Shown: one piece after another, positions 1-7,510 of the stretch
How positions within the stretch are numbered: the first letter of the stretch is position 1
Layout of the letters: each line of letters begins with the position of its first letter
Assembly: GCA_009886125.1 (NCBI GenBank)
Contig: VFJK01000090.1
Span: 1-64,000, forward strand
From: Geobacter sp.
Lineage (GTDB): Bacteria > Desulfobacterota > Desulfuromonadia > Geobacterales > DSM-12255
Direction: 5' to 3'
DNA length: 64,000 nucleotides
The notes under the pieces: model-generated
What the model saw: the letters and a program-made list of their open reading frames with translations, nothing else
The model's database searches: none
Told to the model about the DNA's origin: nothing
Program-made: the position numbers and the translations under genes

Positions 1-1545
1 TGTTGCCGGTGTTGCCGGTGCTGTCGGTTGGGCCGGACTATTGGGCTCTCCATGCTGTGCAGGAGTAGTTGGTTCTGTCGGTTGAGTCGTTGCTGCAGGT
101 TCCGCAGTCGGTGGTGTAGTTGCCGGTTCTGTGAGGGCTGCAGGCTCGGTTGAAGGTCTTGGCGCATCTGGCGGAGTGTTTGCCGAACCTTCGGGAACAG
201 GTGGGCTAGAGGGCGATGGCTCCGAGATCGGTGTTCCTGAGGGGATATTGGCAATTGATGGTGCAGAAGTGATAGGAGCTGTTAGTGCTGTTGCAGCAAC
301 AGGAACAATTCCAGCGGCACCTGCAGCAACAGCGGCAGTCGCAGCGGCTCCTGCAGCATAAGGAGTAAGCTCAGCGGCACCTGCAGCAACAGCAGCAGTC
401 GCAGCGGCACTTGCTGCAACTGGAGCAAGTTCAGCGGCACCTGCAGCAATAGCAGCAGCAATAGCAGCAGCACCTGCAGCAACAGGAACAGCTGCCCGGA
501 GGAGAGCAGGTATCAATGCTCCGCTCGAATCTTCCTTCTTTTCTGGTTCCGATGCTTGTGCAGGCGTATCAGGCTTGGGAGCAGGAGAAGTTCCAGGTTC
601 TGCGGGCTTCGGCGTGTCCGGCTTTACATCCTGTCCCTGTGGTGTGGGAGCCGGACTAGGATCAGGCGTTGATGCCGCCGGAGGAGTGTTCGTTCGTTCC
701 GGCTCAGCTGGTTTTGTCGAGGAATCCCCTGGCTGGACGGGGATAATCGCGGCACCGGTAGTATCCTGTTTGTCAGGTTCACCATCCTGCTCCGGTGCCC
801 CTGCATACGCAGGATCTGGTTGTTGCGCTGGTTGCCCGGTGAGAGCAGCAGGTTCCTGCTCTTGAGGAAGTCCTCTCGTTTCCGGCTGAGGCACCCCTTC
901 AGGTGGTTTCGTATCTGCAGGCAGCACGTTCACCGTGGTGGGCAAAACCAGAGAAGGTTCTGGATTGGTATCGTTTTTCTCCGGTTGCTGGCCTCCCTTA
1001 GTCGGGACAGCTCGTTCTGCAAGTTCGACAGCTGCTGCAGAGCTGATATTCGAGAACGGAATTATCCTGACAATTTTGCCCTTGATAGTGCCCTGTTCAG
1101 AGGTGGCAAACGACTTGGATTCGGGGATAATTGCGCCCGTTTGAGGTGAAAACGGGAGCACTCTGAAGGTGGCGACAAAGGGGATGCAGCCCTTGTTTTC
1201 ATCTGCTTGCCTATGCAGGTTCAGCAGCACAATTTTTGCGTTGGCATACTCATCGTACAACTGCTTCACATAGCGTTCATCGACGACGCTGAAGCGGTTG
1301 ACCATGAACCGGTACACGGCCCCGTTTGCTTTGGCCTTAGCCCGATCGACTGCCGACTTTTCATTCTCACTGTCCGGGCATACCTGGTCTTCGATCTCCA
1401 CATCCGCGGCATACTGCTCGGCCCGCAAGAGCGGGGGCAAAGTCAACAGCAACGCCATCAGGATTGCCACGCCGGATATCGACACTATGCGCGAGCATCC
1501 ACTCCAAGAACTGTATGTAGCTTGATGTCGGTTTTTTGAATACAT
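1..1545 (-). CDS. exported proline/alanine-rich protein, C-terminus beyond the window
   Basis: The frame is open for 515 codons from an ATG at 1545 to the window edge without a stop, so the C-terminus is missing. After about 20 basic and polar residues a hydrophobic stretch (VAILMALLLTLPPLL) looks like a signal peptide. A folded-looking segment follows (about residues 45-165, beginning EQYAADVEIEDQVCPD), then about 150 residues rich in Pro, Glu and Thr, then a very Ala-rich stretch (near residues 345-425) with two near-identical 20-25 residue units around the words AAELAPVAA and AAELTPYAA, then more Pro/Thr-rich linker. I recognise no family for the N-terminal segment. Pro/Ala-rich segments are typical of spacers that span the periplasm or cell surface. 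Same strand as the caspase cluster and probably its last member. The GC-rich repeats produce several misleading frames on the plus strand. Confidence 0.72.
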   Translation of the reverse strand, partial: MYSKNRHQATYSSWSGCSRIVSISGVAILMALLLTLPPLLRAEQYAADVEIEDQVCPDSENEKSAVDRAKAKANGAVYRFMVNRFSVVDERYVKQLYDEYANAKIVLLNLHRQADENKGCIPFVATFRVLPFSPQTGAIIPESKSFATSEQGTIKGKIVRIIPFSNISSAAAVELAERAVPTKGGQQPEKNDTNPEPSLVLPTTVNVLPADTKPPEGVPQPETRGLPQEQEPAALTGQPAQQPDPAYAGAPEQDGEPDKQDTTGAAIIPVQPGDSSTKPAEPERTNTPPAASTPDPSPAPTPQGQDVKPDTPKPAEPGTSPAPKPDTPAQASEPEKKEDSSGALIPALLRAAVPVAAGAAAIAAAIAAGAAELAPVAASAAATAAVAAGAAELTPYAAGAAATAAVAAGAAGIVPVAATALTAPITSAPSIANIPSGTPISEPSPSSPPVPEGSANTPPDAPRPSTEPAALTEPATTPPTAEPAATTQPTEPTTPAQHGEPNSPAQPTAPATPAT

Positions 1546-1692
1546 GATTCGCCACGCTTTAATAAGTTCAAGACAGCACATGATCATAAAAAATCACGGG
1601 AATAAAATCCCATCCTGCTATTTCAGGCCAGTTCTCGAGAAAAACTTTCAATATGTTATACTGGTAATTTTTACTGTGATTGTAGAGATTGT

Positions 1693-1860
1693 TTACCCTA
1701 AACTGTTGTATGCGCCAACAGCATAATAACCGGGAATGGTTACCCTGTATGGCGGGCGTACGAGTTCTCCCGCCCGATTGTATTTGTGGGCTTTTGCCAA
1801 GGCTTCAACCTCGGTATTACAATAGTAGATGTTATAAGTCAAACCTGACCTCGGAAGATG
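1693..1860 (-). pseudogene. remnant of a fibronectin-like C-terminal module
   Basis: Between the stop of the lipoprotein gene and the next gene, the minus strand encodes about 55 residues with no start codon, bounded upstream by an in-frame TAG (1861-1863). They include SGLTYNIYYCNTEVEAL and PPYRVTIPGYYAVGAYNSLG before a TAA at 1693-1695. This resembles the end of the neighbouring lipoprotein (GYNLYYGSSN and TPYFATVAGYYVVTAFNQFG). It is therefore most likely the last module of a second, decayed copy of that gene, or an old duplication of its 3' end. Confidence 0.6.
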
Positions 1861-1996
1861 CTAAAAAGCAAGGCTATTTTCAATTATGCGGAGTCCAAAG
1901 CAAGAAAGTCAAACCGTACACCCTCTCCCTGAAAACCGTGTTGAATGTATTTGAGCACTGCTTTTTACAAAGGCTAAACAGTGCCCACCTGCAATA

Positions 1997-3142
1997 CTAA
2001 TTCGGGACAATGGAAACAGCTGCTGAAGCCGGCCCTTCGCCAAACTGGTTGAATGCGGTAACAACATAATAACCCGCGACAGTTGCAAAATAAGGCGTAC
2101 GTACATTGGCAATTTTTGTTCCGTTAGCGGGGGTTACCGTATTCGAAGAGCCGTAATAGAGGTTATAGCCGGTAGCTCCATTTACAATATTCCAAGTGAG
2201 ACACTTTTTACCAGCAGGGGTAAACTGGTTATACAACCCATCCGAATACAGGGTAACGTCTCCAATTGGTGCTAATAATGGAGGTGCTTCAGTGGTAAAA
2301 GTGCACGTAAATGGAGCAATAGCTGCCCCGCTCATGTCTTTAACCTCAAGAATCGATAGCGTGTATTGAGTGGAATACGCTAAATTTGAAAGAGGACTCA
2401 AAAGAATCAGATCATTACGATAAGCGATAAAGTTAAGTGGAATTCTATTTCCCGATGCATCCGTAAGTTTGACCGTTCCAGATGTTATAGTAGATGGCTT
2501 TACATTTTGAGTGAAGCTAGTTGTAAACGTACTGGTTATCGGAATATTGGTGGTATTGGAAATGTAAGAGCCTGGTGATCTAACGTAAAGGGCAAAACCA
2601 GTGGGATCATAAAACTGCGGATACATATAACGAATATTGTCTACTTCAACGGTCGGATGAGCTAAAGCTTCGGTAAAAGCAAGAGTGACCGTACCAGCAT
2701 TTGTCGTTTGTCCTGCAGCTATATTGAGATTACGAACTTCGGCAACATACTTTTCGCCATATGCGGAATAGTTGCCCCATATTTCCATCTCAATCTTGAG
2801 CGTATACGTGCCTGGAGGGATGTTCCCTAACGAGGCGCTGTGACTGTTGCAATCTGCATAACTGGTTACCCCCAAACTGTTTGCATTTACAACATTACCT
2901 AATGAGTCCAGAAGCTTGAATTTAAGTTGAGGGTTGCCGCCAAGATCACTGCAAAGATCAGGCGCTGCAAGAGCGCTTGTGTTGTTAGTATATACAACAG
3001 CAGCGACTACCTTGTTCGACTGGCTTGGCAGGCGTAGCGACACCGTAATTGACCCGGTTTCCGATTTTTTCGCTCCACAGGCAGCGAGAAACAACAACAG
3101 AAAGAGTACCAGAAAGCTTCTGTAAAACGATTTCCGGATCAT
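1997..3142 (-). CDS. lipoprotein with an Ig-like (Big_5 type) domain and a fibronectin-like C-terminus
   Basis: 381 residues. The N-terminus is a lipoprotein signal with lipobox LAAC (Cys about residue 22), so the protein is expected to be lipid-anchored in the envelope. Residues about 30-160 form a beta-rich region with a carboxypeptidase-like extension (IPPGTYTLKIEM). Residues about 195-290 match the SbsA/Big_5 Ig-like pattern (FTQNVKPSTITSGTVKL ... STQYTLSILEVKDMSGA). The last 80 residues look like a fibronectin type III fold (TWNIVNGATGYNLYYG ... YYVVTAFNQFGEGPAS). A good ribosome site (GGAGGG) precedes the ATG at 3142. It lies 34 bp after the small glycine-rich gene on the same strand. 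Probably a structural or adhesive surface protein; no catalytic motif is seen. Confidence 0.72.
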   Translation of the reverse strand: MIRKSFYRSFLVLFLLLFLAACGAKKSETGSITVSLRLPSQSNKVVAAVVYTNNTSALAAPDLCSDLGGNPQLKFKLLDSLGNVVNANSLGVTSYADCNSHSASLGNIPPGTYTLKIEMEIWGNYSAYGEKYVAEVRNLNIAAGQTTNAGTVTLAFTEALAHPTVEVDNIRYMYPQFYDPTGFALYVRSPGSYISNTTNIPITSTFTTSFTQNVKPSTITSGTVKLTDASGNRIPLNFIAYRNDLILLSPLSNLAYSTQYTLSILEVKDMSGAAIAPFTCTFTTEAPPLLAPIGDVTLYSDGLYNQFTPAGKKCLTWNIVNGATGYNLYYGSSNTVTPANGTKIANVRTPYFATVAGYYVVTAFNQFGEGPASAAVSIVPN

Positions 3143-3176
3143 GCCATCCCTCCTGGAATAAGTTTATTGCGTTTTT

Positions 3177-3479
3177 TCACCAGTTGACGGTTGTCGTTCC
3201 GGTAGTTGATCCGCTACCGCCACCACCACCTCCTGAAAATGCAGCAGCCGCTCCTCCAGCCACCAGCACTCCGAGAATCACCCAGACCCATCTGGACATC
3301 CTGGTCTCCTTGATGATCGGAATATCTTCTGCCTGCACTGGTGCCTGTTCGGGCTGCTGTTCCGAAACGACGGCAACCGTAGGTTTTTCCTCCGCACCAA
3401 AAGCCGATATCGGCATCTGCGCCGTTACGGTGGAAACTACCAGCAGCAAAGCGATCAGGCGAATACGTCTATTGAACAT
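3177..3479 (-). CDS. small exported membrane protein with a glycine-rich tail
   Basis: I chose the ATG at 3479 because GGAGGA lies 6 bases upstream and the product then starts with a normal signal peptide (MFNRRIRLIALLLVVSTV); an in-frame start 14 codons earlier lacks this. 100 residues: signal peptide to about residue 28, a Glu/Gln/Pro-rich linker, one membrane segment (WVWVILGVLVAGGAAAA), then a run of glycines and a short Ser/Thr tail. No family recognised. It follows the DUF4384 gene by 22 bp and is very likely co-transcribed with it and with the caspase lipoprotein. Confidence 0.65.
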   Translation of the reverse strand: MFNRRIRLIALLLVVSTVTAQMPISAFGAEEKPTVAVVSEQQPEQAPVQAEDIPIIKETRMSRWVWVILGVLVAGGAAAAFSGGGGGGSGSTTGTTTVNW

Positions 3480-3501
3480 AAGCAGTCCTCCGTAACTAAT
3501 T

Positions 3502-4353
3502 TCAGTTGCGAACAATCTCATAGGGGAAGAAGCGTTCGGCCCGCTCAGCAGGAGGAAGATCGATAATCTCCCGCATCAGGTCGGTAATAAAAGCGGTTTT
3601 TCCGTCATAAAGCGTGCGCTGTCCTTCCTGATATCTCTCGGGATCGAAATGCACCGGACTCTTGGTAGCAAGGATATAAATCGCCTCGGCAGCGTGGTTC
3701 TTGCCATCCTCCAGTTCGACCTTCAGTGACACAGGACCCCGGTCATTCTCTTCGGCTGGAAACACCAGCGTGGTTCCGCCTTTCAAAAGGTTATCGCGAC
3801 TGATCTGGTTCGGGTAAAGGATAGAAACCTTGTCGTCTGCCATCAGATTGAAAATGGTGATGTAAGCATCGCGCGACGGCTTGACTTTAACCACCAGCTT
3901 GTCCATATGTTTCAGAGTTTGACGGTTGAGCCCACCCTCAATCCTGAAATAAGGGTCCGTTTCTCCCTTCTCTTTCACTACCTTTGCTTTGAGGCGCACT
4001 CGGTAGACCAGGGAGAGCTGACCAGACCTACCTTCGCCTCTCTGGTCAACACCATCTTCCAAAATCTCTTTCTCGACAACTTTGCCATAAGGTGCACTTT
4101 TGATGAAGTCACCGGTCAGCCTCATATTGACTACCAACGTCTCGGAAAGGATGCGAGTACCGACCACTTGCTCGACAGCCTTGCGCAGTGCGTCTTCTAT
4201 CGCCTTGTGCCGTGCCACTTGCGGGGTTACGTTATCGAGAGAGCAGCTCCCCTCAACCGTCACCCACTCGCCTGTAGCATCATATGCCGCATTGGACAAG
4301 CTCGCACAAAATAAAGCTGCGAGTGTCATTATAGTAAGCAGTCTTAAGATCAC
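3502..4353 (-). CDS. exported DUF4384 protein with a FlgT-like N-terminal region
   Basis: 283 residues starting at GTG 4353, whose G overlaps the TAG stop of the caspase gene (TAGTG), so translation is probably coupled. Signal peptide about residues 1-22 (LAALFCASLSNA). Residues about 28-75 (GSCSLDNVTPQVARHKAIEDALRKA in part) resemble the start of FlgT-type proteins, in which short repeated ARxxAIxDAL segments occur. Residues about 150-245 carry the DUF4384 pattern (DAYITIFNLMADDKVSILYPNQ). In established families DUF4384 is often fused or adjacent to caspase-like peptidases, as here. Function unknown; a periplasmic partner or substrate of the caspase protein is my inference. Confidence 0.75.
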   Translation of the reverse strand: MILRLLTIMTLAALFCASLSNAAYDATGEWVTVEGSCSLDNVTPQVARHKAIEDALRKAVEQVVGTRILSETLVVNMRLTGDFIKSAPYGKVVEKEILEDGVDQRGEGRSGQLSLVYRVRLKAKVVKEKGETDPYFRIEGGLNRQTLKHMDKLVVKVKPSRDAYITIFNLMADDKVSILYPNQISRDNLLKGGTTLVFPAEENDRGPVSLKVELEDGKNHAAEAIYILATKSPVHFDPERYQEGQRTLYDGKTAFITDLMREIIDLPPAERAERFFPYEIVRN

Positions 4354-5633
4354 TACTGGACCACCGTTGTTATAATAAAGTCGCCTGCTTTTGACGAATC
4401 CCCACCCTTGTTGAAAACCGGAGTCTGCGCCAGATTTTTTCTCCGCAGGGCGGTTTTAGCCACTTCGTCCTTGACGTAGCTTGTGAGTTCATTCAGTGAG
4501 ATATAACTGTCACTATTGGCATCAGCTTTTCCTCGAAGACCATTCAGCAAGAAATAGGTAAACAGCCCATGCTTTTTATCTGAGTAGGCGTTACTGATCT
4601 GATCCCCGGTAGATGACGCGAAAGAGGTGAGGTTTGCTGGAAGTTTTAACTGGTCATTCACGTGAAGCAGCGCCGGTCGCGCTCCGGCCACAAGCATCTT
4701 TGCAGACCGGGAAGAACCGCTGAAGCAGGAGTCTACGAATACTAAACCCTGCTTCACTCCCAACTTTGCGATATCATCATAAAACGCCTGAAGACGGTAG
4801 CCAGTGCTTGTGATAAAAAGAGGGTCACCATCATAGGGTATAAGATAGGGATCACCTTTCTCCAGATCCGGCAGCCCATGCCCGGCATAATAGACGAAAA
4901 GAACTGCATTCTTGCCGATGTTGTTCGGCAAATAACTTTTCAGGTACCCTTCAATTTGTGCACGTGATGCTTTGGCGTCGTTCAGAATAATGAGGTTCTT
5001 TTCCGGCACACCGATAACCTTCGTAAAATACTCCGCAATCGATGCAGAATCTCTTGCCGCGAACTCGACCGGCGGGAGCGATGCATAATTCTCGATCCCG
5101 ACAACAAGTCCCCAATAGTTAGCTTTCGGTTCAACTTTTGCTTTGAGCGGAGCATCGACATTCAACTCCTCAATCTCCAGATTTACCGTGAACTTACTCA
5201 CCAGCTTGGGTTCATCATCCAGCAGAACCCTGACTTTCCACTCTCCGGTCAGCTTGGCTGCCTTTTCATCCCGGATCGGCAAACGATGCCAGGTAGTCGT
5301 TGTACGTTGAAATTTACCGGGAGGAACCGATAACGGAAGTATCTGAGACTTCATGTACAGGTTGCCGTTGGGAGCATACCATTCCCAAACCAGCGAATGC
5401 TCTCCAGTCACATTTTCAAGAGCGACATTTGCAACGACCTCGGAATCCTCGGAAGTAAAGATGGGGGGAGCATTTATCAGAAGCATATCTGGAGTGACAT
5501 TTTTTATCGGAGTCGTCGAAAGGAGCAATCCGCCAACCTTTTGTTGCGGCGTTTTTGTGACATAGTCGGTGACACAACCACCCAAAAAAATACCCAAGAG
5601 AGAAAGAAAAAAAATGTGTTTAATTTTCATCAT
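4353..5633 (-). CDS. caspase-family (peptidase C14-like) lipoprotein with an EF-hand-like loop
   Basis: 426 residues. A lipoprotein signal ends in GGC (Cys20). Residues about 45-160 form a beta-rich domain. Residues about 172-350 are a caspase fold: YWGLVVGIENY, then VLFVYYAGHG with the catalytic His near 252, then LVFVDSCFSG with the catalytic Cys near 303. Residues 371-382 read DANSDSYISLNE, with acidic or polar residues at loop positions 1, 3, 5, 9 and 12 of an EF-hand, suggesting calcium binding. Peptidases of this family cut after basic residues in plants and protists (established for metacaspases); specificity here is unknown. First gene of the cluster, with a good promoter upstream and GGAG 5 bases before the ATG at 5633. 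Confidence 0.85.
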   Translation of the reverse strand: MMKIKHIFFLSLLGIFLGGCVTDYVTKTPQQKVGGLLLSTTPIKNVTPDMLLINAPPIFTSEDSEVVANVALENVTGEHSLVWEWYAPNGNLYMKSQILPLSVPPGKFQRTTTTWHRLPIRDEKAAKLTGEWKVRVLLDDEPKLVSKFTVNLEIEELNVDAPLKAKVEPKANYWGLVVGIENYASLPPVEFAARDSASIAEYFTKVIGVPEKNLIILNDAKASRAQIEGYLKSYLPNNIGKNAVLFVYYAGHGLPDLEKGDPYLIPYDGDPLFITSTGYRLQAFYDDIAKLGVKQGLVFVDSCFSGSSRSAKMLVAGARPALLHVNDQLKLPANLTSFASSTGDQISNAYSDKKHGLFTYFLLNGLRGKADANSDSYISLNELTSYVKDEVAKTALRRKNLAQTPVFNKGGDSSKAGDFIITTVVQ

Positions 5634-5669
5634 TAAGTCTCCGGATAAAAATGATGCTTTTGGGCGAAT

Positions 5670-5698
5670 AAATTATTGAAAAATAAAGATAATGTCAA
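5670..5698 (-). promoter_or_regulatory. sigma70-type promoter of the caspase cluster
   Basis: On the minus strand TTGACA (5693-5698) is followed after 17 bases by TAATTT (5670-5675), giving a start site near 5663 and a leader of about 30 bases before the caspase gene. It is the only strong promoter I see for the genes down to position 1. Confidence 0.6.
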
Positions 5699-5837: not shown

Positions 5838-6164
5838 TTATAGCACTTCTGTTCTCTTCCCGGAGAAGTTGCCTGTAGCGACAACTGCTTCGTCAAGCAG
5901 TTGCCTGCCATGAATTACTGTGAGCACACTTATATCTCCATCCAGACGGTAGACTGCCCGATAGGATTTGTACACGATCTCCCGAATATCGGCACGCTTC
6001 ACCTCAGGAACAATCCTGTCGCTTTCCTGATAGCGGCCCAGCTTCGCAACAGTCTTTAACAGACCGCGAATCCAGTCTTCAGCCGCTGACGGCTTGTCCA
6101 TGGCAATATAGGCAGCGATTTCCTGTACTCGTTTCAGGGCAAGCGGGGACCAGACAATCTTCAT
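5838..6164 (-). CDS. ParE/RelE-superfamily toxin
   Basis: 108 residues. The sequence follows the ParE pattern: WSPLALKRVQEIAAYIA at the start, a central helix pair ending in LGRYQESDRIVPEV, then REIVYKSYRAVYRL and a final strand SVLTVIHGRQLL. ParE toxins poison DNA gyrase and RelE relatives cleave mRNA on the ribosome; this protein looks nearer to ParE. Its ATG overlaps the TGA of the 38-codon gene before it (ATGA), the usual arrangement for a toxin translated after its antitoxin. Confidence 0.83.
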   Translation of the reverse strand: MKIVWSPLALKRVQEIAAYIAMDKPSAAEDWIRGLLKTVAKLGRYQESDRIVPEVKRADIREIVYKSYRAVYRLDGDISVLTVIHGRQLLDEAVVATGNFSGKRTEVL

Positions 6165-6277
6165 CGTGCTACCGAGCTCAAGGCCTGCTTCAGCGCCTCA
6201 TCGTGCGGCATTCCTTCTCCGGCGGCCAGCTGGCATTCGGCAGCATGGATATCCTGAAGCAGATCAAGTCGTTCCAT
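6161..6277 (-). CDS. very small partner gene of the ParE-like toxin (putative mini-antitoxin)
   Basis: 38 codons from ATG 6277 with AGAGGTGG just upstream. The product (MERLDLLQDIHAAECQLAAG, ending KQALSSVAR) is acidic at the start and likely all helical. It overlaps the toxin start by 4 bases. It is shorter than usual ParD or Phd antitoxins and lacks a visible DNA-binding domain, so it is either a minimal toxin-binding peptide or the surviving C-terminal part of a longer antitoxin. Identification rests on position and coding quality, not on homology. Confidence 0.55.
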   Translation of the reverse strand: MERLDLLQDIHAAECQLAAGEGMPHDEALKQALSSVAR

Positions 6278-6420: not shown

Positions 6421-6452
6421 TTAACCATAGTTTAATACTATTGTGTGGTTAA
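6421..6452. promoter_or_regulatory. nested inverted repeat before the nucleotidyltransferase gene
   Basis: TTAACCA (6421-6427) and TGGTTAA (6446-6452) form an outer inverted repeat, and ATAGT/ACTAT an inner one. The repeat spans a potential GTG start at 6443, which argues for the ATG at 6473 as the true start and for an operator or leader hairpin here. Confidence 0.35.
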
Positions 6453-6472
6453 ATTACAAGGCGGGAACCAAT

Positions 6473-7510
6473 ATGCTCAACTGGCTATCAATTGAAACAC
6501 GGACTCTTCATGCCGAGATGATGGAGCGACTCGCCGTCAGGGAAGCACAAAGGAATATCTGTAGCCTGGCCGGGACATTCACAACGAAAACCATCAATGG
6601 CACCGAGTACGTCTATTTTCTTCATAGCTCCCCAGGTGGCACGAGGCGCAACATCTGCGTTGGCAAGAGGACGGAAACTCTGGATCAATTGCTGCACCAG
6701 CACAAGCTTGGCAGAGCTGAAGAAGCCGGTGACCCCATCGGAATCCGTGAGTTGAGTTTACAATTGAAAGCCGGTCGGGTTGCCACTGCTGACCATGCCA
6801 TTGCCCGCATTATCCGTGAACTTGCCGACGGCAGCGTTTTTCATGCCGGCGGCGTGCTGGTCGGCACACAATCGTTTGCCTGTATTGGTAATATACTGGG
6901 CGTTATCTGGGACAGGACAACGCTCGGCACCCAGGATATCGACATTGCGGCTGATAAAAACCTGTGCATTGCCATACCCGATATATCAGCAGATGTCCCG
7001 AAGATTCTTGAAAGCCTGAATATGGGGTTCTTCCCGGTTCCGACTCTCAACAGAAAGCATCCTTCAACATCCTTCTCGATCCGTAAAAGCCCTGTCCGGG
7101 TGGATATGCTTACGCCCATGCATAAAAACAATACCGAGCCGGTAAGGATCAGCCGTTTCAATGCCGCGGCTGCGCCTCTCCGCTTTCTGGACTACCTGAT
7201 AGAAGATCCAATACCCGGAGCCGTCATAAACGGCGATGCCATCGCAGTACGAATCCCCCAACCGATTCGATACGCACTCCATAAACTGATCGTCTCACAG
7301 GAGAGAGATGTTACCGCTGGAGCCAAGAAAAATAAGGACTTGTGGCAGGCCCACCAGATTTTGGAATACTTCAAATCCGAACGTCCGCTGGATATAATTC
7401 CGGCCTGGGATGATCTCATAGCCCGTGGTTCGGGTTGGCAAAAGAAAGCTTCTCGCGGGCTGACGGAAATGGAGGATATCTTTGGTCGTCTTGATGTTGT
7501 GAAGCTATAG
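6473..7510 (+). CDS. nucleotidyltransferase-fold protein of the GSU2403 type
   Basis: 345 residues from ATG 6473 (AAGGCGGGA upstream); an in-frame GTG at 6443 would add 10 residues. A helical N-terminal region contains a segment rich in aromatic and basic residues (TEYVYFLHSSPGGTRRNICVG). The central nucleotidyltransferase core has the helical-turn signature FHAGGVLVGTQSFACIGN followed by the acidic pair in TQDIDIA. The C-terminal half is helical (LHKLIVSQERD). In this fold GG/GS plus DxD bind nucleotide and metal. Several relatives act in toxin-antitoxin or phage defence; role here unknown. Single gene, divergent from the ParE-like module. Confidence 0.72.
   Translation: MLNWLSIETRTLHAEMMERLAVREAQRNICSLAGTFTTKTINGTEYVYFLHSSPGGTRRNICVGKRTETLDQLLHQHKLGRAEEAGDPIGIRELSLQLKAGRVATADHAIARIIRELADGSVFHAGGVLVGTQSFACIGNILGVIWDRTTLGTQDIDIAADKNLCIAIPDISADVPKILESLNMGFFPVPTLNRKHPSTSFSIRKSPVRVDMLTPMHKNNTEPVRISRFNAAAAPLRFLDYLIEDPIPGAVINGDAIAVRIPQPIRYALHKLIVSQERDVTAGAKKNKDLWQAHQILEYFKSERPLDIIPAWDDLIARGSGWQKKASRGLTEMEDIFGRLDVVKL

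Follow-up and report, generated by a model that had tools for sequence, protein, structure and literature searches.

A four-gene set encoding exported proteins

In a 64,000-nucleotide stretch of DNA from Geobacter sp. (contig VFJK01000090.1; the whole stretch is referred to as the window), four genes follow one another along the minus strand from position 5633 to position 1997. In the direction of transcription they encode a caspase-like lipoprotein, an exported protein with a DUF4384 domain, a glycine-rich protein with a single helix (the one-helix protein) and an Ig-like lipoprotein (Table 1). The intergenic distances are -1, 22 and 34 nucleotides: the GTG start of the DUF4384 gene lies inside the stop codon of the caspase gene, giving a 1-nucleotide overlap, and the one-helix and lipoprotein genes are each preceded by a good ribosome-binding site. 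Export signals are predicted on all four products, in agreement with a preliminary description of the region. That description also counted a Pro/Ala-rich open reading frame (ORF) as a fifth part, which falls outside the set. Together, the four genes very probably constitute a single conserved extracytoplasmic unit, and the set is probably one undescribed cell-surface protein-processing unit. In the literature on caspases, DUF4384 and donor strands we found no description of it; as the coverage was partial, this counts as weak evidence of novelty.

Table 1. The four genes of the set, followed by the flanking features of the window.
Feature	Position	Strand	Remarks
Peptidase_C14 caspase lipoprotein	4353-5633	-	426 amino acids; lipobox, Pfam match, structure model
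FlgT_N-like and DUF4384 exported protein	3502-4353	-	283 amino acids; GTG start
Gly-rich one-helix protein	3177-3479	-	100 amino acids; signal peptide
Ig-like (Big_5) lipoprotein	1997-3142	-	381 amino acids; lipid Cys22
Promoter-like match	1883-1912	-	between lipoprotein gene and Pro/Ala-rich ORF
Decayed FN3-like repeat	1695-1850	-	outside any ORF, past the lipoprotein stop
Terminator-like hairpin	1596-1613	-	pattern match; between four-gene set and Pro/Ala-rich ORF
Pro/Ala-rich exported ORF	1-1587	-	judged outside the set
Promoter-like sequence	5670-5698	-	TTGACA, 17 nucleotides, TAATTT
ParE-type toxin gene	5838-6277	-	PF05016, E = 7e-15; range includes the antitoxin ORF
Putative antitoxin ORF	6161-6277		38 amino acids
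NTP_transf_8 nucleotidyltransferase gene	6443-7510	+	PF12281, E = 8e-55

Recurrence of the unit in other genomes

Conservation across the order to which Geobacter belongs is not supported: the four-gene set is absent from all 57 sampled relatives, down to order level. Taken by itself, the separation of the genes within the order would count against a unit, an objection that does not stand in view of the loci known from other classes and from another phylum. A contig scan with the window caspase alone as query found nothing, and full-length relatives required an alignment of full-length relatives as query. With such a query, five further loci were found, and a sixth (L243) lies in one of the same genomes. 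These six loci in five genomes of Deltaproteobacteria, Nitrospirae and Proteobacteria bring the total to seven, mostly on contigs of metagenome-assembled genomes (MAGs).

In every one of the six other loci (L161-L165 and L243) the one-helix gene is the first or second gene downstream of the caspase gene, and it is missing from all of about 30 further neighbourhoods of caspase genes and caspase-DUF4384 pairs. The full order of the window is kept in L161 and L243. In the former, from a Deltaproteobacteria MAG (genome G178), the caspase is 39-40% identical to that of the window over nearly its full length and is followed by the DUF4384, one-helix and N-domain lipoprotein genes (the N-domain is described below). 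L243 is a second locus in the Nitrospirae MAG that also holds L163; its caspase and lipoprotein genes are frameshifted, and at L243:6103-7055 (minus strand) an RHS-core fragment carrying a zincin-like HETSH motif comes after the frameshifted start of the lipoprotein. In L162 (Deltaproteobacteria MAG) and L163 the one-helix gene follows the DUF4384 gene and the contig ends shortly after. In L164 (Desulfobacteraceae MAG, genome G383) and L165 (Proteobacteria MAG) it directly follows the caspase gene, with the N-domain lipoprotein gene upstream in L164 and downstream in L165. A candidate locus in Neomarinimicrobiota (L166) proved to be a false lead, consisting of an 88-residue match and no caspase unit.

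Because the set recurs elsewhere, we reject chance clustering of the four genes. In a phylogenetic tree, the five of the seven unit caspases that are accompanied by DUF4384 form one branch (support 85/91), which does not include the caspases of L164 and L165, both on long branches. The scattered occurrence in several phyla is suggestive of either transfer or repeated loss.

The caspase and its DUF4384 partner

The first gene encodes a caspase-like lipoprotein, as described before, with the lipobox LGGC (lipid Cys20) and an intact catalytic dyad. The Peptidase_C14 domain (PF00656, E = 6.4e-16; residues 176-408) covers positions 5-224 of the 233 of the profile, and is preceded by an N-terminal β-sandwich (residues 32-151; structure model, mean predicted local distance difference test score (pLDDT) 82). 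The caspase fold is seen in the model, for which the nearest solved folds are the paracaspase MALT1 and metacaspases (E down to 1e-12). The dyad, His252/Cys303, and two putative S1 acids, Asp195/Asp301, are invariant in 26 of 26 caspase sequences. Domain coverage, dyad and S1 acids thus place the protein among the Peptidase_C14 caspase homologues of the orthocaspase/metacaspase type (MEROPS C14B). In the metacaspase TbMCA2, Asp95 and Asp211 have been tied to the S1 pocket (PMC4357240). We infer from the DxC motif and the helix-1 Asp that Asp195 and Asp301 are their equivalents, and since the S1 acids match, the caspase is predicted to cut after Arg or Lys. A signal or helix at the N-terminus is frequent in prokaryotic orthocaspases and metacaspases (PMC3501461); the window caspase differs from them in being a lipoprotein with its own N-terminal β-sandwich and a fixed extracytoplasmic gene neighbourhood.

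The second product matches DUF4384 (E = 1e-14) and, short of the Pfam cut-off, FlgT_N (E = 4e-4). Adjacent, co-oriented caspase and DUF4384 genes, as present here, are common at phylum level. In the 18 neighbourhoods collected around caspase/DUF4384 matches (L131-L148; L131 lies on the same contig as L161) the two genes are on the same strand less than 5 kb apart, mostly less than 0.5 kb, which bears out the earlier statement that the association is a known one. For cyanobacterial orthocaspases, DUF4384 is also on record as an accessory domain (PMC7475262). The window shares with these associations the adjoining DUF4384 gene. It differs in that DUF4384 belongs to a separate exported protein with an FlgT_N-like part, and in having the lipoprotein and the one-helix protein in addition; a one-helix gene is absent from the common loci. 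Tandem arrays of caspase genes adjoining a DUF4384 gene, some with ankyrin-like N-terminal parts (L141, L138 and L246), are common in parts of the phylum of the window and in Nitrospirae.

The one-helix protein and the lipoprotein

We place the start of the one-helix gene at the ATG at 3479, which has a good ribosome-binding site, rather than at 3521. The protein consists of a signal peptide, a Pro/Glu linker, a helix headed by RWVW, a poly-Gly stretch and a strand-like C-terminus, GTTTVNW. The one-helix proteins in general share this plan, with a short acidic or Pro-containing linker, [KR]WW, the helix, poly-Gly and a C-terminal GxxTVxW. An origin of the terminal W as a by-product of overlap with the next start codon was rejected, because the apparent overlap in L199, L202 and L165 is an artefact of GTG starts placed inside TGG-stop by the ORF caller, and in the window, L161, L163 and L164 the gene with the W tail does not overlap the next gene. 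In L169 and L170, the gene immediately upstream of a multihaem cytochrome gene encodes a PEGA-type protein with a similar helix/poly-Gly tail (TSVSF, GVNF).

The lipoprotein begins with an N-terminal domain (N-domain; residues 29-160, approximately) that starts with TGSITVSL and contains Cys64 and Cys98, followed by a Big_5 domain (residues 195-284, E = 2e-11) and an FN3-like repeat (residues 305-380). The decayed repeat past its stop codon is 38% identical to residues 326-368. In the structure model, which is of low quality beyond the N-domain (mean pLDDT 55.6), the first strand (residues 30-37) is followed by a loop (residues 42-59, pLDDT < 50) that contains K44. Related lipoproteins have the N-domain, with TGSIxFxL, right after the lipid Cys, and two further cysteines are conserved in unit members. 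Their outer domains vary freely and include Big_5/FN3, BACON, cadherin-like and β-helix, and FGE-sulfatase domains.

The C-terminal tail of the one-helix protein resembles the first strand of the lipoprotein. Tails read GTTTVNW, GTSTVTW, GSVTVGW, GTVTFSW and GQISAEW, and first strands read GSITVSL, GSVSFGL, GSVSFNLEW and GAITFGIKW. Searching with the lipoprotein N-domain also retrieved caspase-free tail-lipoprotein pairs, in which the tail belongs to a CsgG-type protein (L199, L202, L205 and L210). The CsgG-type or CsgG/PEGA tails before N-domain lipoproteins are GSIDFEW, GRIRVQW, GKVSYQW and GSATVRW, and a FecR protein before one such lipoprotein ends in GDVVVHY; in L205 the tail gene is three genes upstream of the lipoprotein gene, with two small genes between. 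When a profile of the first lipoprotein strand, with W left out, was used for scoring, eight tails ranked in the top 0.14-4.5% of 726 ORF C-termini; these scores are supporting rather than independent, because the CsgG-type tails were chosen partly by the same motif. Six W tails were flagged among the 735 ORFs of the collected loci by a script that did not pick up the short genes in L161, L163 and the window, and five of the six precede an N-domain lipoprotein. A CsgG-type protein with such a tail and an N-domain lipoprotein possibly form a general surface-display pair.

Flanking sequences

Upstream of the caspase gene, the promoter previously proposed to drive the set has a perfect -35 element and a poor -10 element (three of six positions), and falls below the threshold of the promoter scan. 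The ParE-type toxin gene lies further upstream and is co-directional with the caspase gene; the putative antitoxin ORF is upstream of the toxin gene, and the nucleotidyltransferase gene is on the strand opposite to this pair. On the downstream side, the Pro/Ala-rich ORF begins about 0.4 kb past the lipoprotein stop and is truncated, since the window begins at base 1 of the contig. Among 57 genomes, none has a relative of its non-repetitive N-domain, and matches to its Pro/Ala region are compositional. The orphan N-domain and the separate position led us to reject the ORF as a member of the set.

A possible mechanism and its alternatives

The best reading of the set is a proteolytic surface-assembly system. 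A parallel is offered by the type V (FimA/Mfa1) fimbriae of Bacteroidota. In Mfa1, an Arg-specific clan CD protease (Arg-gingipain) removes strand 1 of the lipoprotein precursor, and in the crystal structure of the mature protein the C-terminus reaches into the place of strand 1 (PMC5789003, PMC4789730). In outline, the window set would be alike, with a lipoprotein precursor whose predicted first β-strand lies just after the lipid Cys, a loop with Arg/Lys that is predicted to be flexible, a clan CD protease of predicted Arg/Lys specificity, and a C-terminal strand that would be able to fill an empty place, with a conserved Trp near the C-terminus (PMC4789730, PMC5789003). The differences are that the protease belongs to family C14 instead of C25 and is encoded with its partners, that the donor strand would be on a separate one-helix protein, and that the phylum is not Bacteroidota. 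Moreover, type V fimbriae polymerise after Arg/Lys cleavage, whereas the window set is not known to form a polymer.

We tentatively favour a proteolysis-linked donor-strand exchange, a reading by analogy that we hold with little confidence and place ahead of, in this order, cleavage of the one-helix protein, a sorting signal, and then a death or defence function and mere bystander genes. The caspase would be held at the membrane by its lipid and, if specific for Arg/Lys, would cleave the lipoprotein in the flexible loop that follows its first strand and contains K44. The DUF4384/FlgT-like protein may act as an accessory, and the one-helix protein would be a membrane-tethered carrier of the C-terminal β-strand. 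The lipoprotein would sit at the surface, with its conserved N-domain and variable outer domains. We infer the caspase substrate, the strand exchange and the surface location.

Several observations weigh against such an exchange. Similarity between tail and strand is not better within loci than between them, and their co-variation is not significant (p = 0.087). Tail-lipoprotein pairs exist without a caspase, so that cleavage cannot be general, and Arg/Lys in the loop does not discriminate, because nearly all members of the lipoprotein group carry one, with or without a caspase. The tail itself has exceptions: the one-helix protein of L162, near a contig end, is without the W tail, and that of L243 ends in GTINVNY. 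If the helix is inserted in the inner membrane, cleavage of the signal peptide would leave the tail facing the cytoplasm. Finally, the lipoprotein has no Pfam or NCBIfam match to the FimA/Mfa families, its N-domain profile found no fimbrillin in the PDB, and a fold search with the N-domain gave no convincing solved structure (a Bacteroides adhesion protein, 4h40, has a TM score of 0.17). Because sequence membership in FimA/Mfa is lacking, we do not class the set as a type V fimbria.

Somewhat less plausible is that the caspase has the one-helix protein as its substrate and cuts it at the basic residue just before the helix ([KR]W), so that either the exported part is released as a signal or the DUF4384 protein is set free, with the lipoprotein as a sensor or structural neighbour. 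The one-helix gene is indeed the most constant partner of the caspase, and a basic residue directly precedes the W in five of six aligned proteins (SRW, SKW, SKW, YKW and HKW), with SGW in L163 and LKW in L243. However, a basic residue beside a membrane helix is ordinary, and both the conserved C-terminal tail and the caspase-free tail-lipoprotein pairs would be left unexplained.

We consider it unlikely that the tail is an outer-membrane recognition or sorting signal, either a β-signal of the β-barrel assembly machinery (BAM) type or a CTERM-like tag, with the caspase maturing or anchoring proteins as PorU, a sortase of clan CD, does. In its alternating pattern and its aromatic last residue (W/Y) the tail does resemble the C-termini of outer-membrane proteins, likely barrel proteins in L201 and L202 also score high on the strand profile, and the L199 and L202 sets include an adjacent barrel-like protein ending in F. 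Yet the proteins that bear the tails (one-helix, CsgG-type and PEGA) are not barrels, a lone strand is unable to insert in the way a barrel does, and there was no match to a CTERM-type family.

A cell-death or defence device, in which an extracytoplasmic caspase triggered by envelope damage or a rival would act on neighbouring cells or on the cell's own envelope, is improbable. Bacterial gasdermin-caspase modules also encode a caspase-like protease beside its presumed partner, with cytoplasmic components, whereas every component of the window set is exported. Pfam and PADLOC scans of the caspase neighbours found no gasdermin, STAND/NACHT, effector or other PADLOC partner; none of the full-length caspase relatives is on a plasmid, and phages gave no match. 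In favour of such a device are the match of the window caspase to the PADLOC caspase model (E = 1e-13), the RHS-core and zincin-like fragments adjoining the lipoprotein in L243, and the role in death or fratricide that has been suggested for exported metacaspases (PMC3501461).

Equally improbable, and largely refuted by the linkage of the one-helix gene to unit caspases even without DUF4384 (L164 and L165), is that only the caspase-DUF4384 pair is functional and that common envelope genes settled beside it by chance: the adjacency of the pair is widespread in the phylum and FN3-like regions such as those of the lipoprotein are frequent in the order of the window, but the one-helix gene is missing from the other caspase loci and the lipoprotein N-domain occurs in only 12 of 297 genomes.

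Significance

Exported prokaryotic caspases have mostly been discussed as death proteases, and we know of no job established for them. The set described here ties an exported caspase to defined surface partners, and thereby provides named candidate substrates and a testable question. Extending the favoured exchange of strands, we speculate, as an idea more doubtful than the exchange itself, that donor-strand surface assembly arose independently outside Bacteroidota: a membrane-tethered GxxTVxW strand would be the general docking partner of a TGSIxFxL N-domain with interchangeable outer domains, and one branch would have acquired a lipoprotein caspase of its own, whose cleavage would switch the partner or set it free. 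If the relation between tail and strand holds, it would represent an independent origin of protease-triggered strand exchange, and a simple two-part code in which the C-terminal strand and the N-domain may allow several unrelated envelope proteins to recruit surface lipoproteins.

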